From an uncultured Actinomycetes bacterium (GTDB lineage: Bacteria > Actinomycetota > Acidimicrobiia > Acidimicrobiales > RAAP-2), in NCBI GenBank assembly GCA_903871335.1, contig CAIQGE010000027.1, positions 1 to 39,541 on the forward strand: a stretch of DNA of 39,541 nucleotides. Direction: 5' to 3'. This document shows positions 965 through 9,331 of this stretch, one piece after another. Within the stretch, counting starts at the first letter, position 1. The number at the start of each line of letters is the position of its first letter. The notes beneath the pieces are model-generated. The model saw only the letters and a list, made by a program, of their open reading frames with translations. It ran no database searches and was not told the origin of the DNA. A program made the translations under genes and the position numbers.

Positions 965-1010
965 GGGTTAGCCCCCTTTTCACCCGTGGGTAACCCATGC
1001 TCCCTACGGT
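965..1010 (+). promoter_or_regulatory. promoter region of the response regulator with inverted repeat
   Basis: TACGGT at 1005-1010 is a plausible -10 box and is followed by GTTCTG, as in the divergent gene's promoter. Just upstream lies an inverted repeat, GGGTTA (965-970) and TAACCC (991-996), with an inner ACCC/GGGT pair. It could be an operator for the regulator itself. A GTG at 1018 opens a 33-codon frame that ends at 1119, inside the regulator gene. Confidence 0.35.
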
Positions 1011-1090
1011 GTTCTGTGTGACGCGGCCTGACGATTTCCTCCCCCCGGACGTCCCGCGTCGCCTTGTCGCAACCGAGGTGGTGAATCGTC

Positions 1091-1804
1091 ATGAGCGCAC
1101 TGGAACATTCCGTGGTTGACCCCGAGGGTCGTACCGTCGTTCTCGTCGTGGAGGACGAGGCCAGTTACCTCGAAGCCCTCAACGTGGGCCTCACGGTGGA
1201 GGGCTTCATTGTGGTCGCCGCCGACACCATCGATGACGCACGTCGCGTCTTTGCCGAAGCCAAGCCCGACCTCGTTCTGCTCGACGTGATGCTGCCCGAC
1301 GGTTCGGGCATCGACTTTTGTCGCGAGCTGCGCGCCGTGAGCAGTGTGCCGGTGATCATGGTCACCGCGCGCACTGACGAAGTGGACGTCGTTCTCGGAC
1401 TCGAGTTCGGCGCCGCGGACTACGTCACCAAGCCGTATCGTCTACGCGAATTGGTCGCCCGCATGCGCGCCGTCCTTCGCCGTCACGTCGCACCCACCAC
1501 CGACGAGACAGTCACCATTGGCGACATCCGTATCGACCCTTCGCGTCGATCAGTGACGCGTGGCAACGAGGTCATTGAGTTATCGCGCAAAGAGTTTGAT
1601 CTCCTCAACTTGCTCGCGAGTCGCTTGGGTCAAGTGGTCACCCGTGACGAGTGTCTCGACACCCTCTGGTGGGGTCAAGACCTCGCGGACACGCGCACAC
1701 TCGACACGCACGTGAAGCGCCTGCGCCACAAGATCGAAGTCGATCCGGCCACCCCCGTGCACCTCATCACGATTCGTGGCGTCGGCTTCCGTCTGGACCG
1801 CTAG
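1091..1804 (+). CDS. OmpR/PhoB-family response regulator
   Basis: 237 residues. The receiver domain (about 15-130) has the acidic pair E21/D22 (VVEDE), the phospho-acceptor D65 (LLDVMLPDG), the switch Thr in VTAR and K114 (YVTKPY). The winged-helix Trans_reg_C domain (about 145-237) ends in DTHVKRLRHKIE and TIRGVGFRLDR, as in RegX3/PhoP-type regulators. The ATG at 1091 is preceded by GAGGTGG at about 9 nt. No histidine kinase gene adjoins it: the flanks are the divergent Ser-triplet gene and a peroxiredoxin with its own promoter. It is therefore an orphan regulator here, and its targets are unknown. The roughly 14 residues before the receiver fold are a little longer than usual, so an internal start is possible. 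Confidence 0.93.
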   Translation: MSALEHSVVDPEGRTVVLVVEDEASYLEALNVGLTVEGFIVVAADTIDDARRVFAEAKPDLVLLDVMLPDGSGIDFCRELRAVSSVPVIMVTARTDEVDVVLGLEFGAADYVTKPYRLRELVARMRAVLRRHVAPTTDETVTIGDIRIDPSRRSVTRGNEVIELSRKEFDLLNLLASRLGQVVTRDECLDTLWWGQDLADTRTLDTHVKRLRHKIEVDPATPVHLITIRGVGFRLDR

Positions 1805-1812
1805 ATCCGACC

Positions 1813-1818
1813 TACGCT
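1813..1818 (+). promoter_or_regulatory. -10 box of the peroxiredoxin gene (leaderless)
   Basis: TACGCT followed by 6 nt and the ATG at 1825. No Shine-Dalgarno lies between. The box sits 8 nt after the stop codon of the response regulator, so the peroxiredoxin probably has its own promoter. Confidence 0.5.
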
Positions 1819-1824
1819 GGCCCT

Positions 1825-2280
1825 ATGAACACGGGTGAGCGAGCCAAAGACTTCACACTGCAGGATCAATTCGGCAAGGAACGGACCTTGTCCACCATGT
1901 TGGCGGATGGCCCCGTGGTGCTGTTCTTCTATCCGGCGGCGATGACCAAGGGTTGCACGAAAGAGTCCTGCCACTTCCGGGATCTCGCGGCCGAATTTTC
2001 CGCCGCTGGCGCGCAGCGCGTCGGAATCTCGATGGACACGGTCGACAAGCAGAAAACTTTTACGGACTTGAACCAACTCGACTACCCGTTGCTCGCCGAT
2101 GTCGGTGGCATGGTGGCTCGTGACTACGGCGTGAAGCGACCCCTCGGACTACTAAAGGTGAAGCGCACGACGTTCGTGATCGGCACCGATCAGACAATCC
2201 TTGACGTGATCACGTCGGAATTGAACATGGACGTGCACGCCGACCGCGCCCTCGCCGCCCTCAAGGCGGCCGCGAATTAA
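1825..2280 (+). CDS. PrxQ/BCP-type peroxiredoxin
   Basis: 151 residues. The motif GCTKESCHFRD matches the PrxQ/BCP signature: a peroxidatic Cys in the GCT motif and a candidate resolving Cys five residues later, giving an atypical 2-Cys enzyme. It would reduce hydroperoxides in the cytoplasm and be recycled by thioredoxin; trxA/trxB are in the same window. The usual Pro in the PxxxTPGC context is partly altered here (YPAAMTKGC). I chose the ATG at 1825 because the domain begins there and because TACGCT lies 6 nt upstream, although the frame is open further upstream inside the previous gene. Its TAA overlaps the stop codon of the convergent fae homologue. Confidence 0.92.
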   Translation: MNTGERAKDFTLQDQFGKERTLSTMLADGPVVLFFYPAAMTKGCTKESCHFRDLAAEFSAAGAQRVGISMDTVDKQKTFTDLNQLDYPLLADVGGMVARDYGVKRPLGLLKVKRTTFVIGTDQTILDVITSELNMDVHADRALAALKAAAN

Positions 2281-2789
2281 CGCAATGTCGGTGGCACGTA
2301 ATACCCGTTGATGGGCACGTCGCGCACCGCCAGAAGTGCCGCCACATCAACGGACTCGTCGGCTCCGCGTGCAAGGGACGCCCGCGTCGCCTCTCGATTG
2401 AACGAGTAGACAAGATCGGCATCCTGTGCGTCCGGATCTACCCACACCGCCGCGATCAGCAAGAGATCCGTCGGCGACGAAATAATCCCGTCGGCGACCG
2501 CGTCAAGGACCCCACTCGCGACGCCCAATTGGGCCGCCCCCCAGGTCAACGTGGCGTGGTTCGTCGACGCGATCATCGCCTTGTTCACAAACAAGGTCAT
2601 TGGTTGCACCGGCATGTTTGGTTGCGCGACGACGACGAATCCCGCGTGACCCTCACGAGGCGTCGCCAACGCGGTGTTCCACGCCACTTCGACGGGACCA
2701 CCCTTCTCGCCGAGCACGGTGTTGAGGTGGGCCGCTTCTTTTCCCGATCCGGCGAAGGCCTCGCCGAACTGGGTTAGGCCGCCGGCCAC
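2277..2789 (-). CDS. formaldehyde-activating enzyme (Fae) homologue
   Basis: 170 residues, the normal Fae length. The N-terminal FGEAFAGSGKEAAHLN aligns with the Fae signature (GEALxGdGNEVAHID); His21 corresponds to the proposed catalytic His. QPNMPVQPMTLFVNKA and the FNREAT segment match conserved Fae blocks. Classical Fae condenses formaldehyde with tetrahydromethanopterin to the methylene derivative; some homologues have no proven substrate. No other pterin C1 gene is visible here. The GTG start overlaps the end of the upstream oxygenase gene by 16 bp, so translation is probably coupled. The stop overlaps that of the convergent peroxiredoxin (TTAA, 2277-2280). Family assignment is firm; the actual substrate and pterin are inferred. 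Confidence 0.85.
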   Translation of the reverse strand: MAGGLTQFGEAFAGSGKEAAHLNTVLGEKGGPVEVAWNTALATPREGHAGFVVVAQPNMPVQPMTLFVNKAMIASTNHATLTWGAAQLGVASGVLDAVADGIISSPTDLLLIAAVWVDPDAQDADLVYSFNREATRASLARGADESVDVAALLAVRDVPINGYYVPPTLR

Positions 2790-3604
2790 GTGACCGGCGG
2801 TTCAGCGAACGGTGTGACGCGTCCGTAGCGAATCTCACGAAGGAGCTCCGAGGACACCGTCGTGGGCTTGGTGTCGTAGGCGAGTAGTCCCACGTGTCGC
2901 AGCGTGTCGCCCGTAATGGGGCTGACCCGATGGATCGAGTGACGGCCTTCGAAGATGAGGAGTGTTCCCGGTGTCATCTCCAAGGTGAGGACGTCCGGGT
3001 GCGAACCGTTCAACACGCGCGCCACGTCGTCGTAGTTCTCGTTGTCAGCCGTGCGAATCAGCGGCACCACGTCGAAGTCACCCCCATCGGCCGCGTCCTG
3101 GATGGCGAGCGACACGACGAAATCCGTCTGGTCAAAGTGCCACTGCAATTCGTCGCCCTCGCCCATCACCGCAAGGTTGAGCGCCCCGCAGGGGTCGGCG
3201 TAGTGGTAGATCGTGCCTCGATTGAGCACGGCTTCAATGAACGCGGTGACCGCGGGCGACTCGTAGATCTGACGGAGCGGCGACGTGAAGGGGATCACGT
3301 CGTAGCCCACCGCTCGCACGCCGTAGGGCATCCAGGTCTGGCGGGGGTGATCCTTCGGCCACTCGTCGCTCGGTAGTTCCAAATACGCGGTTCCGACACC
3401 CCCGGAGGGGTGCGCGCGTTCCGCGAGGGCGTCGGCGTCCGCCACCAGCTTCGCCACGCCGTCGGGTGTCACGAATCCACTGAGCTCCGCCGCACCCATC
3501 GCCGCAATCTGGGCGCGAGCATCCTCGATGACACGTTGTCCCGTGGCGCTACCGAGATCGTGCAGCGGATAACGATCGAGATCAATCAGGTCGAGAGGAT
3601 CCAT
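2774..3604 (-). CDS. Fe(II)/2-oxoglutarate oxygenase of the BesD/HalD type
   Basis: 276 residues. LQWHFDQTDFVVSLAIQ carries His156-x-Asp158, and GRHSIHRVSP carries the distal His (His225 best fits). LRHVGLLAYD supplies Arg236 for 2-oxoglutarate. Overall layout resembles the BesD/HalD halogenase family. Known halogenases of this group have Gly where Asp158 stands, leaving room for chloride. With Asp present this should be a hydroxylase or demethylase. Substrate unknown; characterised relatives act on free amino acids. It is the first gene of a two-gene unit with the Fae homologue. TATCCT lies 6 nt before the ATG, consistent with a leaderless mRNA. Confidence 0.82.
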   Translation of the reverse strand: MDPLDLIDLDRYPLHDLGSATGQRVIEDARAQIAAMGAAELSGFVTPDGVAKLVADADALAERAHPSGGVGTAYLELPSDEWPKDHPRQTWMPYGVRAVGYDVIPFTSPLRQIYESPAVTAFIEAVLNRGTIYHYADPCGALNLAVMGEGDELQWHFDQTDFVVSLAIQDAADGGDFDVVPLIRTADNENYDDVARVLNGSHPDVLTLEMTPGTLLIFEGRHSIHRVSPITGDTLRHVGLLAYDTKPTTVSSELLREIRYGRVTPFAEPPVTWPAA

Positions 3605-3610
3605 GGGCGA

Positions 3611-3616
3611 AGGATA
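3611..3616 (-). promoter_or_regulatory. -10 box of the oxygenase-fae unit (leaderless)
   Basis: TATCCT on the minus strand, 6 nt before the ATG at 3604. The bkdC stop is at 3622, so this short gap holds both the end of bkdC and the promoter of the next unit. Confidence 0.5.
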
Positions 3617-3621
3617 CTTCT

Positions 3622-4971
3622 CTACCTCGCCAAAAGAGCGGGTGCCGGATCGTTCAGGAATCTTCCCACGTGCGCGAGTACGGACGACGCCAACGCGCCA
3701 TCAATGCAGCGATGGTCGAACGACATTGCGATCTCCACCACGTGGCGCACCACCACCTCGTCATCGACCACCCAGGGGGCCTTTGCGATCTGACCCACGG
3801 CGACAATCGCTGACGTGCCCGGCGGCAGGATGGGCATCGCGCCATCAATGCCGAAGGGTCCGACGTTGGTAATGGTGAGAGTCGTTCCGATCATCTCGTT
3901 GGGGGTCGTGGTGCCGGCTCGAGCCTTCTCGACCAGCGTGGTCAAAGCGTCCGCCATACCCACGAGATCGAGCGTGTCAGCGTCTTTGATGTTCGGGACG
4001 ATGAGTCCTCGTGGCGTGTCGGCCGCGATCCCGAGTGCCACCGATCGTCGCACGATCACTTCTCCGGCCGCGTCATCGAAGCGAGAGTTGATGCCCGGAA
4101 AATGCCGCGCCGCGTCACACAGCGCGAGAGCGACGAGCGTCAGCGGCGAGAGGCGCACATTGGCCATCGAAGGCCGCGACTTCAGCGCGCTCAGCAGTTC
4201 GACGGACTTTGAGGCGTCCACTCGAACCCAGGCCGCGGCGTGGGGAGCACTGAACGCGCTCTGCACCATTGCGTCGGCCATCGAGCGCAGAACCCCGCGA
4301 ACCGGAATCCGTTCCTCCTTGGGTCCACTCTCCCACGGGGCGAGCTCGTGTCCCACGAAACGCGTGACGCCGGTGGGAGCCGCGGGAGCACTTCGCGCAC
4401 GGGGCGTCCCGCCGGACACCACTCGCTCGACATCCGAGCGCGTGATCAGGCCGTCGCGACCCGTTCCCTGAATACTCTCGATGTCAATGCCGTGCTGCTT
4501 CGCATACAAGCGCACCGGGGGCGTCGAACGGGGCGCGAGGGCGGGCGCGGTTGATGTGATCGGCGCCGGCGGTGCCGGTGCCGGTGCCACTGCGCCGCCT
4601 CGGCGGCGGTGTCGCGTCGGTGCACCCTCGTTAGTCGCCACGCCGTAACCCACGAGAACCGCCGTACGACCTTCACCCTGTGGAGTGGTTGCCGGTTCGG
4701 CCGGCGTCGCCAGCGGAGCCGCGTCGCCTCCACCCACCTCAATTTCAATCAGTGGAGCCCCGACGGGGACGACGTCGCCCACCTCCCCGTGCAATTTGGT
4801 CACCACGCCCGCGTACGGGCTGGGTAACTCGACGGTGGCTTTGGCGGTCTCAATGTCGATCAGCGGTTGGTTGAGCGCGATGGTGTCGCCCACCGCCACT
4901 TTCCACACGACGATCTCCGCTTCGGTGAGACCCTCTCCAACGTCCGGCAGGAGAAATTCGCGAGTACTCAA
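3622..4971 (-). CDS. bkdC: branched-chain 2-oxoacid dehydrogenase E2 (dihydrolipoyl acyltransferase)
   Basis: 449 residues. A lipoyl domain (about 3-78) has lipoylatable Lys44 in IETAKATVELPSP. After an Ala/Pro-rich linker comes the E3-binding domain (about 152-190; VRLYAKQHGIDIESI..GRDGLITRSDV). The catalytic domain ends with MSFDHRCIDGA, giving His420 and Asp424 (HxxxDG). It moves the acyl group from E1 to CoA as the core of the complex. Start is a TTG at 4971 that overlaps the bkdB stop (TTGA), so the three genes are tightly coupled. No E3 (lpd) gene is present in the window. Whether the substrate is branched-chain oxoacids or pyruvate rests on the E1 similarity. Confidence 0.93.
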   Translation of the reverse strand: MSTREFLLPDVGEGLTEAEIVVWKVAVGDTIALNQPLIDIETAKATVELPSPYAGVVTKLHGEVGDVVPVGAPLIEIEVGGGDAAPLATPAEPATTPQGEGRTAVLVGYGVATNEGAPTRHRRRGGAVAPAPAPPAPITSTAPALAPRSTPPVRLYAKQHGIDIESIQGTGRDGLITRSDVERVVSGGTPRARSAPAAPTGVTRFVGHELAPWESGPKEERIPVRGVLRSMADAMVQSAFSAPHAAAWVRVDASKSVELLSALKSRPSMANVRLSPLTLVALALCDAARHFPGINSRFDDAAGEVIVRRSVALGIAADTPRGLIVPNIKDADTLDLVGMADALTTLVEKARAGTTTPNEMIGTTLTITNVGPFGIDGAMPILPPGTSAIVAVGQIAKAPWVVDDEVVVRHVVEIAMSFDHRCIDGALASSVLAHVGRFLNDPAPALLAR

Positions 4972-5948
4972 CTCTCAAATCCCATCACTCGATCAACGGC
5001 ATCCAAGATGCGGTCGATATTGGGCAGATACTCCTCTTCCACCCGCGAGGGGGGATAGGGCGTGTGATAACCCGTCACCCGCAGCGCGGGCGCGCGTAGG
5101 GAGTAGAAGCATTCCTCGGTGAGACGTGCGACGACCTCGGAGGCCACCGAGGCGTTGGCCGGTGCTTCGGCCACCACGACGAGCCGTCCCGTCTTTTGTA
5201 CCGACGCCACCATCGGCGGAAAATCGAGTGGTGCGATCGATCGCGCGTCAATGACTTCGACACTGCGGCCCTCAGCTGACGCCGCCTCGGCCGCTCGTAC
5301 CGCGGTGCGAACGCTCGGTCCGTAGGCGATGACCGTCACGTCGGTTCCTTCGCGCGCGACGTGGGCGTCAAAGAGTCCGCGCGGTGGACGATCGAGGTCG
5401 ACCTCGCCCTTCTCCCAGTAGCGACACTTGGGTTCGCAAAAGATGATCGGGTCGTCGTGGGTGATCGCTTGTTGAATCATCCAGTACGCGTCATTCGGCG
5501 TCGTGGGTGAGACCACTCGCAACCCGGCGGTGTGCGCGAAGTAACCCTCGGGACTTTCGGAGTGATGTTCGATCGCACCGATCTGACCACCGAAGGGAAT
5601 GCGAATGACGAGTGCCATCTTGTAGACACCGTGACTGCGGGAATGCAATTTCGCGACCTGCGAGACGATCTGGTCGAAGGCGGGATAGACGAAACCGTCG
5701 AATTGAATTTCACAGACGGGTCGGTACCCACGAATGGCGAGACCGACCGAGGTGCCGACAATGCCCGATTCCGCGAGCGGGGAATCGATGATGCGGTCTT
5801 CGCCGAAGTCCTTCTGCAGTCCGTCCGTCACCCGAAAGACGCCACCGAGTTTCCCGATGTCCTCGCCCATCAACAGCACCTTGGGGTTGTCCTCGAGCGC
5901 TCGTCGCAGTCCTTCGTTAAGCGCCTTGGCCATGGTCATCTGCGCCAT
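4968..5948 (-). CDS. bkdB: 2-oxoacid dehydrogenase E1 component, beta subunit
   Basis: 326 residues. It contains GEDIGKLGGVFRVTDGLQ, the Y/F-rich IQFDGFVYPAFDQI block and IGAIEHHSESPE, all typical of E1-beta subunits of branched-chain (BkdB-type) complexes rather than the AceE homodimeric pyruvate enzyme. With BkdA it decarboxylates the 2-oxoacid using thiamine diphosphate and reductively acylates the lipoyl arm of E2. The ATG overlaps the bkdA stop by one base (TGATG) and the stop overlaps the bkdC TTG start by 4 nt. Actinobacterial homologues have sometimes been named pdhB. Confidence 0.93.
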   Translation of the reverse strand: MAQMTMAKALNEGLRRALEDNPKVLLMGEDIGKLGGVFRVTDGLQKDFGEDRIIDSPLAESGIVGTSVGLAIRGYRPVCEIQFDGFVYPAFDQIVSQVAKLHSRSHGVYKMALVIRIPFGGQIGAIEHHSESPEGYFAHTAGLRVVSPTTPNDAYWMIQQAITHDDPIIFCEPKCRYWEKGEVDLDRPPRGLFDAHVAREGTDVTVIAYGPSVRTAVRAAEAASAEGRSVEVIDARSIAPLDFPPMVASVQKTGRLVVVAEAPANASVASEVVARLTEECFYSLRAPALRVTGYHTPYPPSRVEEEYLPNIDRILDAVDRVMGFES

Positions 5949-7015
5949 CAGTGCGCACCTCCCCCGACGCCGAGCTCGATCATGTCGCGCTTGCCCTCTT
6001 CTATCAAGGGGTGCACATCGGCGTAGGCGTACTCGAAGATGGATAGCGGGTCCGGGCTGTCCATGGCGAGTACGTCCTCGCGTAGTTTCGCCGCGAGCGC
6101 GTCGGCTTCCGCACTGGTCGCGTCGAATTCACTCGCCGGGACCTGGTGTTGCCGAACGAGATACGCCTTGACTCGCTCCAGTGGATCACGGTGCTTCCAC
6201 ACTTCGACGTCGGCGTCGATTCGATAGCGAGTGGGGTCGTCCGACGTGGTGTGTGCCCCCATGCGATACGTGAAGGCTTCAATCAACGTCGGCCCACCGC
6301 CCTCACGCGCGTGCGCGAGGGCGCGCTTGGTCACCTCGTGAACGGCCAGCACGTCATTGCCGTCGACCCGAATACCGGGAAAGCCGAAACCTTCGGCGCG
6401 TCGGTAGAGGGGAATCTTGGACTGTCGCACCGTCGGTTCGGAAATGGCCCACTGGTTGTTCTGCACAAAAAAGACGATCGGCGCGTCGAAGGAGCCGGCC
6501 CACACGAAGGCCTCATTGACGTCACCCTCGGACGTCGCCCCGTCACCGAAGAACACCATGGTCGCTTCTTCGGCGCCGTCGCGCTGAACACCCATGGCGT
6601 ATCCAACGGCGTTGAGCGCCTGGTTGCCGATGACGATCGTGGGAACCGAGTGGCGGTACTGCTGAGGATCCCAGCCGCCGTGGTCGACGGCGCGGAACAA
6701 ACGGAGCCACTTTTCGGGGGGAATACCGCGACACCACGCAATGCCGTGTTCGCGATAGCTCGGGAACGTGAAGTCCATGGGTTGAAGGGCGCGACCGGCC
6801 CCAATCTGTGCCGCTTCTTGCCCCTGCAGAGGTGCCCACAAGGCGAGTTGACCCTGACGTTGCAGAGACGTGGCTTCATTGCACAATCGACGGATGATCG
6901 TCATGTCGCGATGCATGCCGAAGATCTCGTCCTTGCCGAGAGTGCTCTCGTACTCCGGATGCGTGACGCGCTCACCTTCCGGTGTCAATAGTTGGACCAG
7001 CGGTATTTCGCTCAT
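5948..7015 (-). CDS. bkdA: 2-oxoacid dehydrogenase E1 component, alpha subunit
   Basis: 355 residues from ATG 7015. The thiamine diphosphate motif is clear: GDGATSEGDVNEA followed by FVQNNQWAIS. YRMGAHTTSDDPTRYR is the phosphorylation-loop-like segment of E1-alpha proteins. It is the first gene of bkdABC. I prefer ATG 7015 over an upstream in-frame start because AAAGGGGAG lies just ahead of it. A TACGGT at 7047-7052 on the minus strand is the likely -10 box, giving a leader of roughly 25 nt. The divergent MFS gene starts 55 bp away, so the two promoters overlap. Confidence 0.94.
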   Translation of the reverse strand: MSEIPLVQLLTPEGERVTHPEYESTLGKDEIFGMHRDMTIIRRLCNEATSLQRQGQLALWAPLQGQEAAQIGAGRALQPMDFTFPSYREHGIAWCRGIPPEKWLRLFRAVDHGGWDPQQYRHSVPTIVIGNQALNAVGYAMGVQRDGAEEATMVFFGDGATSEGDVNEAFVWAGSFDAPIVFFVQNNQWAISEPTVRQSKIPLYRRAEGFGFPGIRVDGNDVLAVHEVTKRALAHAREGGGPTLIEAFTYRMGAHTTSDDPTRYRIDADVEVWKHRDPLERVKAYLVRQHQVPASEFDATSAEADALAAKLREDVLAMDSPDPLSIFEYAYADVHPLIEEGKRDMIELGVGGGAH

Positions 7016-7070
7016 CGACTCCCCTTTGAGTTCGAATCCAAGCGCCACCGTACTCCCTTAGTGTCTCTTC
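7016..7070. promoter_or_regulatory. divergent promoters of bkdABC and the MFS gene
   Basis: TACGGT (minus strand, 7052-7047) serves bkdA with a Shine-Dalgarno-bearing leader. TAGTGT (plus strand, 7059-7064) lies 6 nt before the GTG at 7071 and fits a leaderless MFS mRNA. Only 6 bp separate the two boxes, so RNA polymerase binding should be mutually exclusive. Confidence 0.5.
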
Positions 7071-8297
7071 GTGGCACGACTCTTTGTGAACGTCTCCCCG
7101 TTGCGCGAGAGTCGAAATTTTCGGCTTCTCTTCATCGGTCAACTCGTCTCGAGTTTGGGCAGCCAACTCACCCTGCTCGCCATTCCCTACCAGGTGTACG
7201 TACTGACGAAGTCGAGCTTCATGGTGGGCCTCGTCTACGGCGTGCAGTTGCCCCTGCTGATCGTCGGAGCCCTCTGGGGTGGTGCGGAAGGTGACCGGCG
7301 CGACCGACGCTCGATCCTTCTCGTCAGCGCCATCATCCTCGCCCTCATCAGTCTCGGACTCGCTCTCAATGCCACGAACGGGCACGGGAACTTGATCCTC
7401 TTGTACGTCTTGGCGGTCGCTTCGGCGGCCGTCACCGGCTTTGCCAATCCCTCCCGCAACGCGGCGATTCCCCTTCTCGTGCGCCCGGAACAACTGGTGG
7501 CCGCCTATTCGCTCAATCAGGTGATCTTTCAATTCGGCTCCGTCGTGGGACCAGCACTGTCGGGTCTGTTGATCGGTTTTGCCGGACTATCGGCCTGCTA
7601 CTGGGTGGACGTCGCGACCTTCATGGTCCTCATTGCCGCGACGGCGTTGATGACGCCGCTGCCCGTCTCGGACACCGACGCCCACGCCTCCGTGTGGCGG
7701 TCGGTGAGCGACGGATTCTCCTACGTGAGGTCCCACACATTGGCGCAGTGTGTGTATCTCATCGACCTCAACGCCATGATCTTCGGCATGCCCCTGGCGC
7801 TATTTCCCGCGATGGCGCATCACGTCTTCCACGGAGGACCCGAAACCTACGGACTTCTCGTGGCGGCGCCGGCCGCCGGCGCTCTGCTCGGTGCCGTGAC
7901 GACCGGTTGGGTGGAGACCATTCAGCGACGCGGGCGCGCGGTGGTCCTCGCCGTAGCGCTCTGGGGTGCGTGCATCGCGGGATTCGGATTCACGAATGTT
8001 CTCGCGCTCGCCCTCGTCCTGCTCGCGGTGGCGGGGTGGGCGGACGTGATTTCGGCCGTCCTGCGTAACACCATCTTGCAATCAACCATCGAGGACCGTT
8101 TTCGGGGTCGACTCTCGGCGATACAGATGGCGGTCGTCACCGGTGGTCCGCGCCTCGGAAACTTTGAAGCCGGTGGCGTGGCCGCGCTCACCTCGGTGGA
8201 ATTCTCCGTGGTCAGTGGTGGCCTGCTCTGCATTGCGGGAGCGGCCGCGTTAGCCGCCTGGCGACCGCGTTTTTGGACCTACCGCGCGGAGGTCTAA
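7071..8297 (+). CDS. MFS transporter, EntS-like (MFS_3) type
   Basis: 408 residues with about 12 hydrophobic helices. The N-terminal RNFRLLFIGQLVSSLGSQLTL and the loop GGAEGDRRDRR are typical of the MFS_3/EntS-like exporter subfamily. The GTG start follows TAGTGT by 6 nt and has no ribosome-binding site. Its TAA overlaps the rlmN stop (CTAA, 8294-8297). Family members export siderophores, macrolides or other small molecules; nothing nearby identifies the substrate. Confidence 0.88.
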   Translation: MARLFVNVSPLRESRNFRLLFIGQLVSSLGSQLTLLAIPYQVYVLTKSSFMVGLVYGVQLPLLIVGALWGGAEGDRRDRRSILLVSAIILALISLGLALNATNGHGNLILLYVLAVASAAVTGFANPSRNAAIPLLVRPEQLVAAYSLNQVIFQFGSVVGPALSGLLIGFAGLSACYWVDVATFMVLIAATALMTPLPVSDTDAHASVWRSVSDGFSYVRSHTLAQCVYLIDLNAMIFGMPLALFPAMAHHVFHGGPETYGLLVAAPAAGALLGAVTTGWVETIQRRGRAVVLAVALWGACIAGFGFTNVLALALVLLAVAGWADVISAVLRNTILQSTIEDRFRGRLSAIQMAVVTGGPRLGNFEAGGVAALTSVEFSVVSGGLLCIAGAAALAAWRPRFWTYRAEV

Positions 8298-9331
8298 TCC
8301 GTCACCGGGAGTCGACGTCGCTTGGGATTGCTCACGGCGGCGAGTTGTCCGCAGGCGGCGTCAATGGAGCGCCCCCTCGTGCGACGGACCGTGACGTTGA
8401 CACCACGATCCTCGAGACCCTCACGAAACGTAGCGACTCGATCCGGTGTCGAACCGCGAACCAGGTAACCGGGCGTGGGATTGAGGGGAATCAAGTTGAC
8501 GTGAGCGAACAGCGGCCGCGCGTAGGCGGCGAGTTCGTCCATCGCGCGATCGGTGTCATTCACGCCGTCGATGAGCGCCCACTCAAAGGAGAGTCGCCGT
8601 GACGTTGTTTCCATCCAGTACGCGCACGCCGCGGCCAGACGCTGCAGGTTGTAGCGACGATTGAGGGGCACCAACTCGTTGCGCGTCTCGTCATTCGCGG
8701 CGTGCAGCGACACCGCCAACGTGAGGGGAAGTCCCTCGTCGGCGAGTCGTTCGATCGCTGGAGCCACACCCACCGTTGACACCGTCAGGTGACGTGCGGA
8801 GAGCCCGCGCCACTCGTGCAGTCGTCGCACCACCTCGATGGTGACGGGGTAGTTCGCGAGCGGTTCACCCATTCCCATGAACACGACGTTGCTGAGTCGC
8901 CGCGGCGCCGCACTGCGGGCGGCGGTGAAAACTTGCGCGAGGACCTCACCAACGGTGAGTTGGCGATTGAATCCCGCCTGCCCGGTGGCGCAGAACGAGC
9001 AGGCCATGGCGCAGCCCGCCTGGGTGGACACGCACACCGTGACGCGATCCTCGTAGGACATGAGAACGGTCTCGATCGTCGCCCCACCGGCCAGGGCGAA
9101 GACCCACTTGCGGGTGGTCCCACGATCACTGGATACGTCGTTCACGACCGTCAGAGGCGAGGTGATCTGTTCGGCCAGCGAGGCCCGCAGGGTCTTCGGA
9201 AGCGTGGTGATTTCCGCTATTTCGCGGTCTTCACGCCATAAGGCCTGCCAGATCTGGTCGACGCGGAAACGCGGCTCGTTCGGGAGAAGTTGGGCCCACT
9301 CGTCGCGGGTGAGGTCGTAGGCCGAAGGCAC
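8294..9331 (-). CDS. rlmN: dual-specificity RNA methyltransferase RlmN
   Basis: 345 residues. The radical-SAM motif CAMACSFC gives Cys107, Cys111 and Cys114. GMGEPLANY, VSTVGVAPAIERL and the C-terminal Cys327 (SIDAACGQL), the methyl-carrying Cys, are all in place. RlmN makes m2A2503 in 23S rRNA and m2A37 in some tRNAs, and affects decoding fidelity. It starts at GTG 9331; TAGCCT sits 6 nt upstream and there is no classical ribosome-binding site, which fits a leaderless mRNA. It stands alone, facing the MFS gene. Confidence 0.97.
   Translation of the reverse strand: MPSAYDLTRDEWAQLLPNEPRFRVDQIWQALWREDREIAEITTLPKTLRASLAEQITSPLTVVNDVSSDRGTTRKWVFALAGGATIETVLMSYEDRVTVCVSTQAGCAMACSFCATGQAGFNRQLTVGEVLAQVFTAARSAAPRRLSNVVFMGMGEPLANYPVTIEVVRRLHEWRGLSARHLTVSTVGVAPAIERLADEGLPLTLAVSLHAANDETRNELVPLNRRYNLQRLAAACAYWMETTSRRLSFEWALIDGVNDTDRAMDELAAYARPLFAHVNLIPLNPTPGYLVRGSTPDRVATFREGLEDRGVNVTVRRTRGRSIDAACGQLAAVSNPKRRRLPVTD

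Follow-up and report, generated by a model that had tools for sequence, protein, structure and literature searches.

Known enzymes of the HalD/BesD fold act on free amino acids, whose C-H bonds they hydroxylate or halogenate; we know of no N-demethylase among them. The metal motif distinguishes the two reactions: HxD belongs to hydroxylases and HxG to halogenases, in which it leaves room for the halide. Oxidative demethylases of the JmjC/AlkB type form a different subfamily with macromolecular substrates and, to our knowledge, have no partner from the family of formaldehyde-activating enzymes (Fae). Characterised Fae proteins take formaldehyde as their substrate, conserved His, Lys and Gln columns of the family have an active-site role, and the presence of Fae is commonly taken to indicate the C1 pathway that uses tetrahydromethanopterin. 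A divergent Fae paralogue that is tied to methylated-amine use, Fae3 of the methylotroph Methyloversatilis universalis FAM5, is about 12-fold up on methylamine, and deletion of fae3 caused no growth defect; FAM5 itself possesses the tetrahydromethanopterin pathway as well as a canonical Fae, and the portions of its account used here, from which we liken the two systems by description only, name no oxygenase partner (PMC5023235).

The window analysed here, a stretch of 39,541 nucleotides from an uncultured bacterium of the Acidimicrobiia, joins these two families in one locus (Table 1). A sequence-only reading of this DNA had described two genes that overlap by 16 bp, are translationally coupled and share one promoter. 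We found the coordinates and the overlap as it had given them, and the overlap is not an artefact of start choice, since no start codon precedes the GTG in its frame and the protein enters the Pfam Fae match as early as residue 8. Coupling is further supported by other pairs, in which a 4- or 1-bp overlap option is common. The common promoter could not be confirmed: a search of positions 1000-8400 returned a single sigma-70-like site (6007-5979) against 1.2 expected by chance, and three genes run in from upstream. Because these genes, encoding E1 alpha, E1 beta and E2 of a 2-oxoacid dehydrogenase, lie on the same strand and leave only a narrow gap to the oxygenase gene, the pair may form the tail of a five-gene transcript. 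As a part of the module itself, the dehydrogenase was rejected. Its genes were seen again in L100 and L101, as an E2 fragment in L050 and as E1 near the oxygenase in L157, and an E2 gene upstream of the oxygenase was met with only in close relatives. E1 alpha/beta genes stand near the oxygenase both in L157, a Bdellovibrionaceae record (5213-7380), and in the window (4968-7048), which may be coincidence. Elsewhere in the window, a 171-aa open frame on the minus strand (383-898) contains a repeated F-S-[IV]-G-S type unit and has no Pfam match; it is a low-complexity or repeat protein, perhaps no gene.

Table 1. Positions of the oxygenase-fae pair and of the genes upstream of it in the window.
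Feature	Position	Strand	Remarks
Fe(II)/2-oxoglutarate oxygenase gene	2774..3604	minus	276 aa, ATG start; HalD/BesD fold
Fae-family gene	2277..2789	minus	170 aa, GTG start; H-x-N
Coding overlap	2774..2789	minus	16 bp; oxygenase stop inside the fae start
2-oxoacid dehydrogenase E2 gene	3622..4971	minus	ends 17 nt before the oxygenase gene; may be co-transcribed with it
2-oxoacid dehydrogenase E1 beta gene	4968..5948	minus	
2-oxoacid dehydrogenase E1 alpha gene	5948..7048	minus	

Across genomes, the two genes travel together. In a survey of 296 Acidimicrobiia genomes, Fae was detected in 38 (37 over the cut-off) and the oxygenase in 47, 35 of which have a close oxygenase (at least 43% identity, a cut set after viewing the list). 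Fae and a close oxygenase co-occur in 33 genomes, Fae stands alone in 4, the oxygenase alone in 2, and 257 have neither, so that a close oxygenase is present in 33 of 37 Fae-positive genomes versus 2 of 259 others. Fisher's test gives p 6e-37 for genomes and, for genera (18 with both, 2 with Fae only, 1 with the oxygenase only), p 6e-20, both values overstating independence because the genomes and genera are related. Fae is missing from all 12 genomes whose oxygenases are weaker matches (31-39%). The oxygenase lies next to Fae at 24 of 40 Acidimicrobiia Fae loci, one of the 24 being divergent, and nine genomes of the class hold Fae and a close oxygenase that are not neighbours. In four Acidimicrobiia loci (L226, L227, L229 and L230), the neighbours of the oxygenase are citrate synthase on one side and an acyl-CoA dehydrogenase on the other, in place of Fae.

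On named contigs, 47 of the best 80 of 144 oxygenase loci have an adjacent Fae, duplicates included; a WH[FY]D motif served in part to find these loci, some of which also belong to the class sample. The pairs among these best 80 include many actinobacterial ones, one from a myxococcal record (L134) and two from proteobacterial records (L135 and L149), and two further pairs (L217 and L218) come from the class of genome G313, which we call Binatia-type after a record title, Candidatus Binataceae. The adjacency that the sequence-only reading proposed to look for beyond this one genome therefore exists in several phyla, which supports the functional link that it drew between the genes; a pairing confined to this genome, which that reading had named as a refutation, is not what is seen. 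After removal of duplicates, 60 of 61 pairs are co-oriented, and in 47 of 61 an available start codon would let fae overlap the end of the oxygenase gene by 4 or 1 bp (72 and 56 of 74 loci with duplicates); the 16-bp overlap is shared by the window and its nearest relatives. Distances among the oxygenases follow those among the Fae proteins (Mantel r 0.58 over 52 pairs with duplicates removed; highest of 2000 permutations, 0.17). Among Acidimicrobiia, where most neighbours are unannotated, no third conserved gene takes a fixed place beside the pair: the largest other neighbour cluster, short-chain-dehydrogenase-like by eye, occurs at 14 of 40 loci in variable positions, and the remaining clusters are mainly common to close relatives. 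Since the flanks differ between groups, the pair itself is the conserved unit, and we regard it as nearly certain that the oxygenase and Fae form a functional pair. Many of the surveyed genomes are metagenome-assembled, and chimeric joining is not likely because adjacent pairs lie on contigs between 137 kb and 1.5 Mb long (G279, G067, L105 and L121).

Several records lie at the edges of this distribution. In L058 (G229) and L163 the oxygenase frame is split in two beside an intact Fae, by assembly error or in a decaying gene. Four records labelled Acidobacteria or Bifidobacterium breve (L104, L158, L168 and L171) carry an Acidimicrobiia-type oxygenase or oxygenase-Fae, and their labels look wrong. 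Fae is absent altogether from 22 of 34 genomes that were chosen mostly for an oxygenase locus without Fae. Plasmid-borne oxygenase relatives of about 35-38% identity (92 records) were kept apart from the pair set; a profile scan of two Rhizobiaceae loci (L209 and L211) found no Fae, nor is there one among the annotated neighbours of two others.

The oxygenase itself matches the Pfam family PF23169 (HalD; 46.2 bits, cut-off 26) and no NCBIfam family. Its predicted structure (pLDDT 94.3) has as its best matches HalB, a BesD-like lysine hydroxylase, HalA, HalD and BesD (Z 21.7-20.7), followed by the BesD-group entry 9oet (Z 17.8) and by SnoN as the first other protein (Z 17.2); a profile search agrees in returning HalD/BesD-group relatives. 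The fold is thus shared with this group, whereas sequence identity to it is only 12-16%. At about 15% identity, the lysine contacts of BesD do not appear to be kept in the alignment with the window protein. By motif, the metal triad HxD...H is formed by H156, D158 and H225. The window oxygenase reads HFD at this site, and alignment A1 has Asp at this column in each of its 21 rows. All 109 oxygenase rows (duplicates included) carry WH[FY]D; 80 of them came from the scan using that motif, and the 24 found via Fae are free of this bias. The halogenase reading was rejected on this HxD, where halogenases have HxG. The HFD motif argues for hydroxylation, and we are highly confident that the enzyme is hydroxylase-type rather than a halogenase. 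Given its nearest fold relatives, a small, amino-acid-like substrate is plausible from the structural model.

The Fae homologue passes the curated cut-offs of both PF08714 (148.6 bits, cut-off 27) and the equivalog TIGR03126 (127.7, cut-off 118.05) with a full-length domain; both family assignments of the sequence-only reading, a BesD-like oxygenase and a Fae-type protein, were thus confirmed. The protein keeps the conserved His, but the Asp of canonical Fae is replaced by Asn, giving H-x-N instead of H-x-D. Counting duplicates, 91 of the 98 Fae rows share this H-x-N (four of them read by eye), the others being two H-x-T rows from one gene, three with an altered His, one canonical H-x-D and one fragment. 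H-x-D itself is found in the Methylobacterium Fae and in the second Fae of genome G304. The Methylobacterium protein (PDB 1Y5Y/1Y60) is related to the window Fae over most of its length (5e-25) and shares with it the His and many conserved columns, but the two are only about 32% identical and fall on opposite sides of a long branch with 100/100 support. That branch divides a tree of 86 sequences into 7 rows that had been classed as canonical for their H-x-D ahead of tree building (3 of the 7 have unusual composition), and 79 others; duplicates were removed, L038 and L238 are long branches, and the midpoint root serves for drawing. The window Fae group is apart from the canonical methylotroph-type Fae.

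The genomic setting differs as well. Unlike methylotroph Fae, the window-type Fae adjoins an oxygenase, and its genomes lack two markers of the tetrahydromethanopterin pathway: Mch is found in none of the 37 Fae-positive Acidimicrobiia genomes, a single one of 43 Fae-positive genomes has beta-RFAP synthase, and G000 has neither. By contrast, an Azospirillum plasmid carries a canonical Fae clustered with mch. The single genome with beta-RFAP synthase, G304, has two Fae genes, a canonical one on the beta-RFAP synthase contig and an H-x-N one downstream of the oxygenase in L136, and so provides an internal control that the two Fae types do different jobs. With both markers missing, tetrahydromethanopterin was rejected as the carrier in these genomes; it is probably not the carrier for window-type Fae. 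Capture of formaldehyde on a pterin, as the sequence-only reading had it, is therefore unsupported for tetrahydromethanopterin, and this Fae also lies off the canonical branch. As the usual acceptor is missing, folate becomes the likeliest one, itself a doubtful assignment. A mycothiol formaldehyde dehydrogenase was rejected as a fixed partner, being over the cut-off in only 19 of the 37 Fae genomes; the best match in G000 scores 216.6 bits, below the cut-off of 512.9. Because Fae-group genomes lack the two pathway markers and their Fae is tied to a BesD/HalD-fold oxygenase, automatic annotation of methylotrophy would mislead here.

These features lead us to a tentative reading in which the oxygenase is an oxidative N-demethylase and Fae is its formaldehyde-handling partner, perhaps linked to folate. 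With a small N-methylated amino acid or betaine as substrate, the oxygenase would oxidise an N-methyl group, and the resulting hemiaminal would decay to the less methylated amine and formaldehyde, a demethylation that the JmjC/AlkB-type enzymes would have in common with it. The H-x-N Fae homologue would then take up the formaldehyde and speed its addition to a C1 carrier, hardly tetrahydromethanopterin and most likely tetrahydrofolate. The substrate class, formaldehyde as the common intermediate and folate as the acceptor are what we infer. We hold the case for an N-methylated substrate to be evenly balanced and that for formaldehyde as the intermediate common to both proteins to be slightly less secure. 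The betaine lipid glyceryl-trimethylhomoserine was considered as a putative substrate.

If this reading is true, the pair would disarm formaldehyde compactly at its source, open a route to methylated amines for Acidimicrobiia and add a further reaction to a family known to hydroxylate and halogenate lysine. The sequence-only reading had not seen such a pair described, and our search of open-licence papers likewise found no account of an oxygenase-Fae pair, of the H-x-N group or of its tetrahydromethanopterin-free setting. Each of the parts belongs to a known family.

In other lineages, a different enzyme takes the position of Fae. An aspartase-like lyase directly follows the oxygenase at 8 of the best 80 of 144 named loci (one identified by Pfam, the others by cluster), including L215 (6185-7426, minus), L214, L216, L145, L147 and L148; some of these loci have an aldehyde dehydrogenase (ALDH) too, and in 3 of the 8 the order is lyase, then ALDH. 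ALDH directly follows the oxygenase in L140, L152 and L156, with a methylaspartate ammonia-lyase next in L156 (by Pfam) and L152 (by cluster). The one ALDH run in NCBIfam, that of L122, is most like betaine-aldehyde dehydrogenase (446 bits, below the cut-off of 668.6). The sister lyase matches aspartate ammonia-lyase closely and keeps the serine loop and the Lys and Asn of the alpha-carboxylate pocket, but its amine pocket is altered. The position of Thr101 in AspB, presumably an amine contact too, holds Ile or Val. In AspB, Asn142 and His188 contact the amine (PMC11744663); the first position is Ala in 7 of 8 sister lyases or else Ser, and the second is Cys in 8 of 8. Since E. coli aspartase itself carries Gln instead of His at position 188, a change there alone means little and that of Asn142 is the main sign. 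This pocket fits an alkylated amine as leaving group, making the sister lyase a candidate for a new N-alkyl amino acid lyase.

Lyase and Fae appear to exclude each other. At a threshold of at least 317 bits (next best, 280), lyase orthologues are found in 12 of 72 genomes, none of which has Fae, and in none of the 46 Fae genomes of the same set. The divergent lyase of L122 (G296, a genome without Fae) falls under this threshold, so other lyases may be missed too. Of the 14 oxygenase genomes in the class of G313, 8 have the lyase, 4 have Fae, 2 have neither and none has both (chance 0.015 with kinship ignored). A wider formulation would make the tetrahydromethanopterin-independent Fae branch the dedicated, co-translated formaldehyde acceptor of an amino-acid/betaine N-demethylase, feeding folate, with ALDH and an N-alkyl-aspartate-type lyase serving instead elsewhere; we consider it less likely than not.

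Transporter genes point in a similar direction. In L157, OpuAC-type betaine transporter genes directly follow the oxygenase. Streptomyces clavuligerus, a cultured host of window-group Fae, carries on pSCL4 a Fae gene (L237:8974-9546) after OpuAC-type betaine transporter genes, where fae and the glycine-betaine-type binding-protein gene overlap by 4 bp; this Fae is 59.5% identical to the window Fae over 76% of the latter. In L136, the order is SBP5, oxygenase, two permease-like genes (named via matches to annotated permeases of L209), a Dpp-type ATPase and, 4 kb downstream of the oxygenase on the same strand, Fae; a relative of this SBP5 (424 bits) occurs in an Ensifer cluster with aldo-keto reductase (AKR), Fae and ALDH. 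Betaine- and peptide-type transporters, together with a lyase whose amine position is altered, lend methylated-amine chemistry indirect support.

The same neighbourhoods feed the main rival to this chemistry. In S. clavuligerus, Ensifer, Caballeronia and Burkholderia, window-group Fae has ALDH, AKR or SSADH-like genes beside it, and the stretch read contains no oxygenase. This Fae may therefore act on another aldehyde, which the oxygenase or some other enzyme would make from its substrate; Fae would hydrate that aldehyde or condense it with a cofactor, a task parallel to that of the ALDH in the sister clusters. The Asp-to-Asn change near the conserved His, the long branch from canonical Fae, the absence of tetrahydromethanopterin markers and the replacement of Fae by lyase or ALDH beside the oxygenase all sit well with such a role. 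Set against this, the window protein exceeds the NCBIfam equivalog cut-off for formaldehyde-activating enzyme, and characterised Fae proteins act on formaldehyde; we rate an aldehyde other than formaldehyde as rather unlikely.

A second alternative keeps formaldehyde and moves its origin: the oxygenase would hydroxylate an amino-acid carbon, as one would expect from its nearest solved relatives, which hydroxylate or halogenate free amino acids at C-H bonds, and formaldehyde would arise later by retro-aldol or oxidative C-C cleavage, with Fae as scavenger. No third family stands at a fixed place outside close relatives, a weak objection given that most neighbours are unannotated, and we judge this course of events distinctly improbable. 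More improbable still is that Fae is a non-catalytic binder or sensor of formaldehyde that protects or tunes the oxygenase. The tight coupling and the missing tetrahydromethanopterin markers would suit a binder, but most rows keep the His, Lys and Gln columns. Finally, that the genes merely hitch-hike without biochemical meaning, for which the nine Acidimicrobiia genomes with both genes apart might speak, is hardly credible, because the two co-occur even when apart, in several phyla and amid differing flanks.
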